A DNA stretch of 64,000 nt. Origin: Anaerolineae bacterium. GTDB taxonomy: Bacteria; Chloroflexota; Anaerolineae; Anaerolineales; Anaerolineaceae. The notes beneath the pieces were generated by a model, which saw only the letters and a program-made list of their open reading frames with translations, had not been told where the DNA came from and searched no databases. The translations under genes were made by a program, and so were the position numbers. Every line of letters begins with the position of its first letter. Within the stretch, counting starts at the first letter, position 1. The stretch spans positions 152,141-216,140 of the forward strand of contig JABLWW010000006.1 of assembly GCA_013178295.1 (NCBI GenBank). Direction: 5' to 3'. Shown here one piece after another: positions 4,037 through 31,477 of this stretch.

Positions 4037-4903
4037 TTACTCGTATCTCTCAAGACGCAATTGGGATATTTGATCGGAAAGCAGCCCCAAAACAAACATC
4101 AGCAAGGCGGTGATGATGGCAAGCATTGAACCCACGCTGACACCTCTGCCCATCAGGGCATACGGCACGCCCCATGCCACCCCTACCAGTCCGATGATCA
4201 GACTGATGGGTATAAAAACACGCAGCGGGTCAAAAAGCACCGCCAGACGCAGGATCAGCAGTATCGTGTCAAAACCCGTTTGCAGAGATACCCTGCTTTT
4301 GCCGGAGCGTCGGGCAGCAGTGGCGATCGGCACATACAACACGCGGTAGCCTCGTTTGATCATTGCCAGTGTGATGGTTGTGGAAAACGAGAAACCGTTG
4401 GGGCACAAATGTATATAACGCCTGACAATGTCGGCGGCGAAAATTCGGAAACCGCTATTGAGGTCGGGTATGTTACGCTCGGCGATGTAATTTGCCATCA
4501 GCGCAAGCAGCCACTTACCAGGCATGCGCCAAGGCGTGCTGTGGATTACCCCGCTGCGTTGACCTATGATCATATCGGCTTCCATTGCTCGTTCCCATAG
4601 TATTGGAATATCGGACGGGTGGTGCTGCCCATCCGAGTCCATAGTGAGGATATACTGTCCTTTTGCAGCCCGTATTCCAACTTTTAAGGCGGCTCCATAA
4701 CCGAGATTGGTGTGGTTAAACAATACAATTGCCCCGGCTTCGGCCGCTCGTTGTGCTGTGGTATCCAGCGACCCATCATCCACCACGATGATCTCGCAGA
4801 TAAAGTCGGCGTGTAATGCCTTAATCCCCTCAATCACGTGGGCAATCGCTTCTTCTTCGTTATATGCGGGAATGACGATGCTTAGCTTTTCATTCTCTTG
4901 CAC
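4037..4903 (-). CDS. family 2 glycosyltransferase, polyprenyl-phosphate type
   Basis: 288 residues, GTG start at 4901-4903 inside the end of the upstream gene (14-base overlap). N-terminal GT-A domain: IVIPAYNEEEAI, VVDDGS nucleotide-binding motif and MDSDGQH (the DxD metal site). The C-terminus has two membrane helices. This matches the DPM1/DPG synthase-like group, which loads a sugar onto polyprenyl phosphate on the cytoplasmic face. Its product could feed the GT-C transferases on each side (inference). Confidence 0.88.
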   Translation of the reverse strand: MQENEKLSIVIPAYNEEEAIAHVIEGIKALHADFICEIIVVDDGSLDTTAQRAAEAGAIVLFNHTNLGYGAALKVGIRAAKGQYILTMDSDGQHHPSDIPILWERAMEADMIIGQRSGVIHSTPWRMPGKWLLALMANYIAERNIPDLNSGFRIFAADIVRRYIHLCPNGFSFSTTITLAMIKRGYRVLYVPIATAARRSGKSRVSLQTGFDTILLILRLAVLFDPLRVFIPISLIIGLVGVAWGVPYALMGRGVSVGSMLAIITALLMFVLGLLSDQISQLRLERYE

Positions 4904-6527
4904 GCGATAATTGTATCATTTTTTCAAACACCCCCCATCCTAAAATCAGGACTGCTATCAGCACAAGAAACTCGCTGGCGTATACATAGCGCGGCGAAGG
5001 GGCATCCGACAATACAATGATGATGAGCGCCACAAGGTGTGCTGCGACCAGCGTTAAGCCGATATACGCACCCTGACTGCGCAGGAAAACTATTGCTGCC
5101 AGACACAGGAACAAAATCCCCCAAAAGCTTAGAACAGGTTGCAGCCATAATGGTAAATCGAGAAAATGATTGATATTGAGGCGTGTAACCTGACTTGCCA
5201 TAATCTTAAAAGAGTTCCAGGCAAAACGGTAGTATTCGTGCCAATGATGCTTGAGCAGAATTTGTGAAACAGTTTGCATTAGCCGAATCTGGTCTGGAAG
5301 CGGCTTGCCGGGTAACGCCTGTCTTAATGCGTATTCGTTGACCACCCAGAGATTACTTGCCAGGAGGTTTGCCACGTGAGCGTACGACCCTTCGGGGTAA
5401 AGGGATAGGATACGCGCTTGCTCAGCGTGTTTTATTTCCAGCGCGCTGAGCAGATAACGGCGCGCTGTCTCATCTGGCATCCGATCAACATCTTCAGCTT
5501 TTGCCACCTGCAGGGCAAATGCCGTTCGCGAATAAGCATACATTGGGCTTGCTACAGAGATTGTCCAGTCTCCCTTAAGGGAGCGATAAATCAAGGGGGA
5601 AAACGCGGTCAGAAGCAACACGGCGACCGAGACAAAAGCCATCTTCCAGCTCCTGTGCCAGTCTGCTTTCAAAGCAGCCACGAGCATGGAAAGCCAGAGT
5701 ACAATACCATACGCACCAGCCGGGCGGGTAAGAAACATGAACGCGCTGAGCAATGCCCCTATGGGAAGCAGACAGGAGTGACGACTTTTGACGTATAGTA
5801 GAAACACCGCTAACAGTAAAAGCAGCCAGCCCTGTGTCAAGGTTTCGGAGAGAACCACGTCAATCTCGTGAGACAAAAAGCAGCCATCGTAAATGAGCAG
5901 GAAGAACACTGCAGAAAGTGAAGGATCAATCAGTGTCATCAAAGCTGTGCAGGCAGCCAGGCTTGAAATCAAGAGGAAAACTTTTTGCGCCCTGACAACT
6001 TTAAGTAAAGGATGATCGCGTATTGTAATCGGTTGTCCATAATACGTCTTGAGGGCTGTGAAATCAAATTCATCATCCTCATTCCCTATGATAAGATTAA
6101 CAAACATTGGGTAAAGCGGGGGGCGCACCGAGTTTTCGGAAGGCTTTTTTATATAACCAAGCGAGTCGGGGCTTACATAAAAGGTGTTCCAGCTGGAATG
6201 ATACCCAAAATCTCCGCGTGTTGCTACGACGGTTATCAGAAAATAGGCGATTGCCAGAGAAACAAGCAGCGAAACTTTGTGCCATAGTACATATCCAGCG
6301 AATTTCCTGTAACCAACGTATGCACAGGTGAGGGAAGCAACCACAACCAAGCCCCACAGGTATCTCTGGCGCATAACGATGGATGTCTCTCCAAATGCAA
6401 GCTCTATGGGCGCAGCGCGGTTGAAACCGACTCCCAATATCCCTAAACAGACCAGCACGACAAACAACCATGCCCATGTCGGGCGGCGTGTGTTTTTTGG
6501 GCTTATAAGACGAGGGGGAATGTGCAT
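4890..6527 (-). CDS. multi-spanning membrane protein, probable GT-C glycosyltransferase
   Basis: 545 residues with about ten hydrophobic segments. The first helix is near residues 17-37 and is followed by more helices and a large periplasmic loop region. Resemblance to GT-C/ArnT proteins rests on size, topology and neighbours; the DE motif after helix 1 is not obvious here. The start ATG at 6525-6527 has AAAAAGGGAAA upstream. It is the first gene of the minus-strand polysaccharide run. Confidence 0.6.
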   Translation of the reverse strand: MHIPPRLISPKNTRRPTWAWLFVVLVCLGILGVGFNRAAPIELAFGETSIVMRQRYLWGLVVVASLTCAYVGYRKFAGYVLWHKVSLLVSLAIAYFLITVVATRGDFGYHSSWNTFYVSPDSLGYIKKPSENSVRPPLYPMFVNLIIGNEDDEFDFTALKTYYGQPITIRDHPLLKVVRAQKVFLLISSLAACTALMTLIDPSLSAVFFLLIYDGCFLSHEIDVVLSETLTQGWLLLLLAVFLLYVKSRHSCLLPIGALLSAFMFLTRPAGAYGIVLWLSMLVAALKADWHRSWKMAFVSVAVLLLTAFSPLIYRSLKGDWTISVASPMYAYSRTAFALQVAKAEDVDRMPDETARRYLLSALEIKHAEQARILSLYPEGSYAHVANLLASNLWVVNEYALRQALPGKPLPDQIRLMQTVSQILLKHHWHEYYRFAWNSFKIMASQVTRLNINHFLDLPLWLQPVLSFWGILFLCLAAIVFLRSQGAYIGLTLVAAHLVALIIIVLSDAPSPRYVYASEFLVLIAVLILGWGVFEKMIQLSRARE

Positions 6528-6634
6528 GAAATTTCCCTTTTTACCCAGGTGATAGCTTACTTAATGTTCTCAGACACACAGCACCCCTAAACGAAACCTC
6601 TTGGATTATAATGATGTCCTATATATTTATCAAC

Positions 6635-6640
6635 AAAGGA
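6635..6640 (+). promoter_or_regulatory. ribosome binding site of the selenoprotein gene
   Basis: AAAGGA, nine bases upstream of the ATG at 6650. It decides the start of the selenoprotein frame. A TATAAT hexamer at 6607-6612 could be its -10 box, but no good -35 is visible. Confidence 0.65.
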
Positions 6641-6649
6641 TACTGTTGA

Positions 6650-6874
6650 ATGGTAAAATGCATTCAAATCAAATACTGCCCAATTTGAAATTATAAGCCC
6701 CGCGCTGCCAGTCTGGCAGCCCAAATCCAGCGCAGGCTTGGTCTTGAGGTAACAATCGAACCGGGCGTCGAGGGACAATTTGATGTTGTGGCTGATGGGA
6801 AAACGATCTATTCCAAGTTCAAGACAGGCAGGTTTCCTGAAGAGGATGATATTGTGAAAATGCTGGGGGGGTGA
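6650..6874 (+). CDS. SelW/Rdx-family selenoprotein with in-frame TGA as selenocysteine (U13)
   Basis: 75 codons, ATG at 6650 to TGA at 6872-6874, with a second in-frame TGA at 6686-6688. Read as selenocysteine, the N-terminus is VKCIQIKYCPIUNYKPRA, which has the CxxU redox motif of the SelW/SelT/SelH (Rdx) thioredoxin-like family at C10-U13. The rest also fits the family: EGQFDVVADGKTIYSKF near residues 41-57 and GRFPEEDDIV at 60-69. The frame stays open and family-like after the TGA, so a mutated stop is unlikely. A hairpin with SECIS geometry follows the TGA, and a tRNA-Sec gene lies at 31.4 kb. The gene is convergent with ecfT, with one base between the two stops. The redox partner is unknown. 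Confidence 0.9.
6704..6720 (+). promoter_or_regulatory. bacterial-type SECIS hairpin
   Basis: GCTGCCA at 6704-6710 pairs perfectly with TGGCAGC at 6714-6720 around the loop GTC. The loop begins with G, and 22 bases separate the TGA from the loop. Known bacterial SECIS elements have a short stem just after the UGA, a G early in the apical loop, and the loop roughly 16-37 bases downstream. All of these hold. It would be bound by the SelB elongation factor; selB itself is not in the window. Confidence 0.82.
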
Positions 6875-6875
6875 A

Positions 6876-7733
6876 TCAAAGCAAGAATCCCGGTACCCAG
6901 AATTTGCCCATCCCAAACAGCGAGAAGCTGATAGACAACAGCAGGATCAGCACGCCGAAACCGATCAGCGCGTAATCGCGACGTCTATATTTTAGCTCTT
7001 CCAGCCATGTTCTGGGACCAACGCCAAATGCCCGCAAGTCCATAGCGTCAATGATATCCTCGCTGCCTGCGATGGCGTGAATGGTTACTGGCACAATTAG
7101 CGGCGCCAATTTGCGTATCTGGGCAATCAGTCCCCCGCTGATCTTTTCGATTTCATATCCCCGCGCCCGCTGCGCGTCCAGTGTCAGGTTAAAATCGCGC
7201 CCAAAGGTGGGGATGAATCGCATAGTCAAATCCATGCCATAAGCAACTTTATCTGGCAGCCCAAGCCCGCGAAAAGTCACCCCGTAGTGTGCCGGGTTGA
7301 GTGAATAGGGTAACAGAATAGTCATGCTGGCAAGGCTGAAAACGCGCGCCAGCATTGCCATCGCATAGGCTGTTTTTTCAGCGGTAATGCGCAGCACGGG
7401 CTGCCAGCCCAGAATGGAAAACGGTGCAGCAAAGCGCGCAATGAGATGCTCTTCCCGATACAGCTCTATCCCTCCACGTCCTGTCAGAAAGGTGAGAAAG
7501 GAAAAGAAAACGATGAAGCCACCAATAAATAACCAGGCGCGGTACATCTCACGCCAGCGGATGCCGGAGGTGAAAACTACAATCAGCGCCATGGCGAGGA
7601 AGATTGCCTGATAGCGCATGTCCCAAAACAGCAATGTTGAGGCAATAAAGGTAGCATAAAAGATAAGCCAGGCGCGTGGGTCAAAGCTCTGGATCAGCGA
7701 TCTGCGTTTTCGATACCGCCACGTAACCAACAT
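6876..7733 (-). CDS. ecfT: ECF transporter transmembrane (T) component
   Basis: 285 residues, CbiQ/EcfT family. Several membrane helices lie in the N-terminal half. The cytoplasmic coupling helices carry the two conserved Ala-Arg-Gly-like motifs as AQRARGYE and AMDLRAFG, which bind the ATPases. The ATG at 7731-7733 is preceded by GAGGA seven bases away. It is the last gene of the ecfA-ecfS-ecfT transcript, and a 16-bp hairpin sits just before its ribosome site. Confidence 0.9.
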   Translation of the reverse strand: MLVTWRYRKRRSLIQSFDPRAWLIFYATFIASTLLFWDMRYQAIFLAMALIVVFTSGIRWREMYRAWLFIGGFIVFFSFLTFLTGRGGIELYREEHLIARFAAPFSILGWQPVLRITAEKTAYAMAMLARVFSLASMTILLPYSLNPAHYGVTFRGLGLPDKVAYGMDLTMRFIPTFGRDFNLTLDAQRARGYEIEKISGGLIAQIRKLAPLIVPVTIHAIAGSEDIIDAMDLRAFGVGPRTWLEELKYRRRDYALIGFGVLILLLSISFSLFGMGKFWVPGFLL

Positions 7734-31364: not shown

Positions 31365-31458
31365 GGGGGTGGCTGGGCTCCGGTGGGCTCCCCGGTCTTC
31401 AAAATCGGTGGCTGGCCGCTTTGCGGGCAGCGGTGGGTTCGACTCCCATCCATTCCCG
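31365..31458 (+). tRNA. selC: tRNA-Sec (UCA), selC
   Basis: 94 bases without CCA. It shows the hallmarks of bacterial tRNA-Sec: an 8-bp acceptor (GGGGGTGG with CCATTCCC), a 6-bp D stem (GGGCTC/GGGCTC with G-U pairs), anticodon loop CTTCAAA with anticodon TCA at 31399-31401, a long variable arm of about 9 bp (GCTGGCCGC/GCGGGCAGC, one mismatch), a T arm GTTCGACTCCCAT and discriminator G. The genome reads GCCT here, so CCA is added later. It delivers selenocysteine to UGA codons with SelB. The other sel genes are outside the window. Confidence 0.95.
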
Positions 31459-31477
31459 CCTTTTATTGGAGGTTGCA

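Follow-up and report, generated by a model that had tools for sequence, protein, structure and literature searches.

A selW-like gene with an in-frame UGA that is probably read as selenocysteine in an Anaerolineae genome

The selW-like locus and the predicted fold of its product

The window, i.e. the whole stretch of 64,000 nucleotides that was analysed, holds on its plus strand a small frame that is located between two minus-strand frames of 545 aa (4890-6527) and 285 aa (6876-7733), and that is interrupted by a single TGA; this frame, the elements around its TGA and a gene for tRNA-Sec are listed in Table 1. The frame begins with the ATG at 6650 and ends with the TGA at 6872-6874, its 74 residues and the stop making up 75 codons; when the internal TGA is written as selenocysteine (Sec, U), the translation reads MVKCIQIKYCPIUNYKPRAASLAAQIQRRLGLEVTIEPGVEGQFDVVADGKTIYSKFKTGRFPEEDDIVKMLGG, followed by the TGA stop. 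The initial annotation had described a 75-codon frame with a ribosome site and one internal TGA, which agrees with what we have found; it had placed the TGA at the second position of the CxxU motif, which is wrong, as the TGA occupies the fourth position, while the peptide that it quoted is correct.

Table 1. Coordinates of the features discussed in the text, given as positions of the window.
Feature	Position	Strand	Basis
AAAGGA, 9 nt upstream of the ATG, probable ribosome binding site	6635-6640	+	Sequence read; putative function
selW-like gene (Rdx family), 74 residues, Sec (putative) at residue 13	6650-6874	+	Translation; PF10262; TIGR02174; AlphaFold2
C-P-I-U motif (putative redox motif), residues 10-13	6677-6688	+	Translation; alignment A4
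UGA probably read as selenocysteine, residue 13	6686-6688	+	Aligned codon TGA or TGC in relatives
Candidate bacterial SECIS hairpin, 7-bp stem (6704-6710/6714-6720), loop GTC (6711-6713)	6704-6720	+	Fold; bSECIS rules; comparative data
tRNA-Sec (selC), anticodon TCA	31365-31460	+	ARAGORN; Rfam RF01852

When every TGA is taken as a stop, the only frame of 60 aa or more that covers this spot is one of 109 aa on the minus strand (6587-6916), in line with the earlier expectation that a stop-based gene finder would report nothing here, or a false gene on the opposite strand. Ordinary gene finders would miss the selW-like gene because its putative redox centre is encoded by a stop codon that is probably read as Sec, and catalogues that treat TGA solely as a stop will miss it as well. 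The search for a sigma-70 promoter on the plus strand has returned a single weak match (9/12), which overlaps the start codon.

The translated protein matches the Rdx family of Pfam (PF10262; E 1.3e-16, 61 bits against a cut-off of 22.6) along residues 5-71, and the NCBIfam model TIGR02174 (51.6 bits against a cut-off of 34.2). The best curated model by E-value (9.1e-23) is SelTWH_Campy (NF041051), which describes a SelT/SelW/SelH family (seleno)protein; however, the score of 80.3 bits lies under the equivalog cut-off of 88, and therefore the window protein is not a member of that equivalog. Cys10 and the column of Sec13 (with Sec written as C) are invariant in the 59 rows of alignment A4.

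In the AlphaFold2 model (59 aligned sequences, mean pLDDT 92.1), the secondary structure elements are predicted in the order E-H-E-E-E-H-H, and the CxxU motif is located directly after the first strand (C10-P-I-U13 behind strand 4-9). The comparison of this model with the PDB by Foldseek has returned, as its top 21 chains (TM-score 0.86-0.91, normalised by the query), exclusively bacterial entries that are SelW-related, putatively Se-binding or titled by accession only, and these are followed by MIEN1 and mouse SelW. The PDB matches by sequence are also bacterial SelW-type proteins, human MIEN1 (E 3.7e-7) and mouse SelW (E 0.016); mouse SelW (2npb) and human MIEN1 (2ljk) thus appear to have their fold in common with the window protein, as judged from its predicted model, but they are distant in sequence. 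The same bacterial PDB entries are grouped as hypothetical or SelW-related in PMC3527542.

The codon at the Sec position and the hairpin that follows it

SelW homologues (E <= 0.001) are present in 52 of the 147 genomes of the organism's own family, the window's genome included, and the codon that is aligned with the internal TGA is TGA in 45 of these rows (the window included), TGC in seven, and nothing else. Outside the family, we have searched a collection of species genomes with the part of the protein that comes after Sec, a query that was chosen so that the search cannot favour TGA over TGC; it has returned 256 relatives, and the codon has been read in the best 80 of them. These best 80 carry TGA in 79 cases and TGC in one, and include Planctomycetota, Myxococcota, Acidobacteriota, Thermodesulfobacteriota, Nitrospirota, Pseudomonadota, Actinomycetota and Chloroflexota. 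Four further homologues (E <= 1e-11), all with TGA, come from a search of 400 genomes of the phylum. At the loci numbered L067 to L151 (n=85; the protein letters of L067 and L114 are identical), the codon is TGA in 84 and TGC in one, and the frame stays open beyond it. The initial annotation had proposed that relatives be examined for Cys or TGA at codon 13, and these are the only two states that occur, both in the 52 family rows and in the 85 elsewhere; the random substitutions and frameshifts past the TGA that it had named as counter-evidence are not seen in these relatives, which keep the frame open downstream. Along the first 16 codons past the TGA, the differences of the window gene from four near relatives fall mainly on third positions (for L072, 3, 2 and 9 differences at positions 1, 2 and 3).

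The Cys-type SelW genes of the family fall into two groups, one in genus g36 (L012, L013, L014 and L022) and one in genus g29 (L015, L052 and L057); one g29 genome (L062) has Sec.

In eukaryotes, the 3' untranslated region is the place of the SECIS; in the window, the hairpin (GCTGCCA-GTC-TGGCAGC) is located within the frame, 22 nt separating the TGA from the loop. The rules that are given for bacterial SECIS elements (bSECIS) in PMC13188914 are a loop of 3-9 nt, a stem of 4-16 bp, a G in the first two loop positions and a distance of 16-37 nt from the UGA, and a direct application of these rules finds the window hairpin within all of them (loop GTC with G first, 7 bp, 22 nt), so that the earlier description of a 7-bp hairpin with a GTC loop at the distance of a bacterial SECIS is borne out. 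Dinucleotide shuffles of the hairpin give z-scores of -1.5 to -2.7 across four choices of its ends; under synonymous recoding of the window peptide, 1321 of 20000 draws (6.6%) reach 7 pairs, and 24% of 4000 recoded sequences fold at least as well (energy p 0.24). The window hairpin alone is not significant against synonymous recoding and has been rejected as proof; the case therefore rests on the comparative data.

The stem positions in the relatives have been fixed from the window hairpin. In the 45 family rows with TGA, 302 of 315 possible pairs are formed, where synonymous recoding would give 225 (sd 4.9); the seven family rows with TGC form 20 of 49 pairs, against 21.5 expected. Across 118 TGA rows, the count is 763 of 826 pairs (92.4%), against a mean of 712.7 (sd 3.4) in 1000 draws, none of which exceeds 724, of a null in which codons are swapped only between rows that share the residue in the same column; the rows are related by descent, and such nulls overstate their independence. 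The 118 are the distinct rows among 127 TGA rows; two more TGA rows, L119 and L123, are not counted, since one inserted codon displaces the hairpin in them. When the 3' arm is slid by 1-3 bases, the pairing falls from 92.4% to 19.0%-53.4%; the first loop position is G in 118 of the 118 rows, and the loop is GTC or GTT in 106. The eight Cys rows have 46.4% of the stem paired, seven of them with 0 to 5 pairs. Since the pairing of the stem lies above a coding-preserving null in the TGA rows and amounts to 46.4% in the Cys rows, the hairpin is selected as RNA and is tied to the UGA. The set of TGA rows with the hairpin and TGC rows mostly without it forms a natural test of the gain or loss of the SECIS together with Sec.

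Two variants of the hairpin can be noted here. In L119 and L123, which are Actinomycetota MAGs, a residue is inserted right after Sec, and the hairpin has moved by three bases and is still strong. In L136, a Planctomycetaceae MAG and the only Cys form among the best 80 of the 256 relatives, 6 of the 7 pairs are kept around a GCC loop, as if a change from Sec to Cys had left the SECIS behind; this stem resembles the remnant SECIS-like structures that are described in PMC1794560.

It could be argued from the unexceptional hairpin of the window that the locus is a decayed pseudogene of a Cys-type Rdx gene, where the TGA would be a nonsense mutation and the hairpin a by-product of the coding sequence. 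We regard this as very improbable, because the TGA recurs across several phyla (84 of the 85 loci) and in 45 of the 52 family rows while the downstream frame stays open, because the differences past the TGA are mainly at third positions, and because the stem shows RNA-level selection in the TGA rows.

Selenocysteine machinery and the reading of the UGA

The tRNA-Sec gene of the window is matched by the Rfam model RF01852 at 31365-31457 with 63.8 bits, against a gathering score of 47. The genome to which the window belongs (3.95 Mb in 21 contigs, 97.8% complete, contamination 4.95%) also holds selA (543.6 bits), selB (349.8 bits) and selD (369.2 bits), all above their curated cut-offs; the absence of these three genes had been named in advance as an outcome that would speak against Sec, and all three are present, next to the tRNA-Sec of the window. 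The selD gene has an in-frame TGA of its own, in SSCAGUASK (contig C19, L042 1531-1533), and is a second likely selenoprotein gene of this genome. The earlier statement that the locus shows directly the use of Sec in this lineage is strengthened by this second in-frame TGA, but the word "directly" is a little strong, as the insertion of Sec is deduced from sequence.

For the comparison across the 147 family genomes, the machinery has been scored as present with selB at E <= 1e-70 or tRNA-Sec at 55 bits or more, a cut of our own; the tool threshold of E 0.001 has not been used for tRNA-Sec, because at that threshold there are matches in all genomes and in the controls. With this cut, selB is found in 109 genomes, tRNA-Sec in 107, and one or both in 120. 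One or the other is present in 44 of the 45 genomes with a TGA-type SelW, against 120 of the 147 overall (hypergeometric p 2.5e-4, a value that overstates independence, as the genomes are related by descent); both are present in 36 of the 45, five lack selB, five lack a strong tRNA-Sec, and a single genome (G053, 77% complete) lacks both. Among the 95 family genomes without a SelW homologue, 26 have neither selB nor tRNA-Sec and 69 have at least one of them. These counts indicate that the machinery is nearly necessary for a TGA-type SelW, but not sufficient. All seven family genomes with a Cys-type SelW retain selB and tRNA-Sec, so that the occurrence of Cys is not caused by the loss of Sec decoding.

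The frame stays open however the TGA is read, and this would also suit a reading of the UGA as a standard amino acid such as tryptophan or cysteine, through a changed code or a suppressor. Such a reading is no more credible than a pseudogene is: the selW-like gene itself and its convergent neighbour (6876-7733) terminate at TGA, the genome has a canonical tRNA-Sec and the complete set of selA, selB and selD, Cys is the only residue with which the codon alternates, and the hairpin tracks the TGA, being mostly lost in seven of the eight Cys rows. Sec insertion is generally inefficient, which would favour termination at the TGA as the usual outcome, with a leader or regulatory peptide of 12 residues as the product and the remainder rarely translated, but this is the least probable reading of all, as the Rdx match runs through both sides of the TGA and the conserved columns of alignment A4 are located on both sides as well (A19, S55 and K56 after it).

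The recoding of the UGA is, by contrast with these readings, strongly supported by the sequence comparisons, and we hold it to be highly probable that the whole explanation of the locus is a SelW/Rdx gene whose codon 13, a UGA, is recoded as Sec, and whose product is a small thioredoxin-fold oxidoreductase, as its family matches and predicted fold suggest. SelB, loaded with Sec-tRNA-Sec, would be retained at the ribosome by the mRNA hairpin just downstream of the UGA, so that codon 13 would yield Sec in place of termination. The pair Cys10-x-x-Sec13 would then act as the redox centre, through thiol/selenol exchange with a partner; we infer this chemistry from the predicted fold and from MIEN1, for whose redox-active CxxC disulfide a potential of -225 mV has been measured (PMC3527542). 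In the review PMC13188914, the exact functions of those SELENOW-like proteins that are clustered with Prx are described as unknown.

Relation to known SelW-like proteins and origin of the gene

The window gene belongs to a selenoprotein family that is already known from many bacteria. "Selenoprotein W (SELENOW)-like protein PF10262 CxxU" is one of the families whose prediction a 2026 review (PMC13188914) rates as highly confident; SelW-like proteins account for 10 of 285 bacterial selenoproteins in a 2006 survey (PMC1794560), and for 427 Sec-containing against 56 Cys-containing sequences from marine samples in a 2008 survey (PMC2398784), where they have the largest count within part of a table. 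Sec is not new in Chloroflexi either: three selenoproteins in three families were counted in 2006 (PMC1794560), and Sec-containing formate dehydrogenases are reported from deep-sea Chloroflexi (PMC5736913); the passages of these two papers on Chloroflexi hold no description of SelW. In epsilonproteobacteria, some selenoprotein genes, particularly those of SelW, have been wholly missed in annotation (PMC4607533). The window gene has PF10262, CxxU, the single Sec and the downstream bSECIS in common with the prokaryotic SELENOW-like selenoproteins and does not differ from them in kind; as SelW-like CxxU proteins are already a listed family, it is well supported but ordinary. Its value lies in the addition of an easily overlooked, well-supported selenoprotein to a Chloroflexota lineage, where the pairing of SelW with a SECIS is conserved as elsewhere.

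The SelW genes of the organism's own family (e.g. L016 and L017) share the Sec codon with the window gene in 44 further genomes, where 5 to 7 of the 7 stem pairs are formed in the corresponding place, but the window gene differs from them in that three residues are absent after LGL. Its identity to the SelW of its own family is 30-44% in local alignments, and at most 41% in alignment A2 (46 of the 51 other rows), while it is up to 58% identical to MAG homologues that come from other phyla (alignment A4, 59 of 137 rows). In a tree of 134 rows (137 less three identical ones) and 81 columns, which has many open forks and an unsettled bootstrap, and for which the 80 outside rows were picked as the best matches to the window, the window gene is located in a fork of six with a support of 99/84; the five other members come from other phyla, i.e. 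Planctomycetota (L084), Myxococcota (L075), Binatota (L085) and Actinomycetota (L119 and L123).

The convergent neighbour at 6876-7733, which we take to be an ECF transporter T component, shares 67-79% identity with genes that 29 further family genomes carry; the stretch therefore belongs to the family, and contamination of the contig has been ruled out. Among 25 family genomes that have both SelW and this neighbour, no conserved neighbourhood has been found, the two genes being on different contigs in 23 genomes and more than 1 Mb apart in two; this comparison covers 46 of the 69 neighbour rows other than the window's own, the other 23 genomes being absent from the family SelW rows.

The higher identity to homologues of other phyla, the fork that is shared with them and the unshared location suggest replacement by transfer, and the window gene is also the sole Rdx match of its genome above the cut-off (the second match, of 12.6 bits, lies below it). 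On this evidence, the organism may have lost the SelW of its family and taken in, from another phylum, a Sec-containing SelW and the SECIS that accompanies it, a possibility to which we give somewhat less than an even chance; if true, one selenoprotein would have replaced another across phyla. Transfer as a firm claim has been set aside, because the AU test does not reject a tree in which the window gene is held with 43 Sec rows of its family (p 0.509), the held tree being slightly better.

As to mobile carriers, two scans of viral contigs have found no relative, and among plasmids there is one record. On this plasmid (Cytobacillus spongiae, NZ_CP089998.1), a homologue with TGA (L071 1501-1719) is flanked by selD and selA, with an Hsp20 gene between the homologue and selA; the homologue is without a gene in the PLSDB table, which is incomplete by its own description. 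The record is thus one of a plasmid that carries a putative selenoprotein gene with part of its own machinery.
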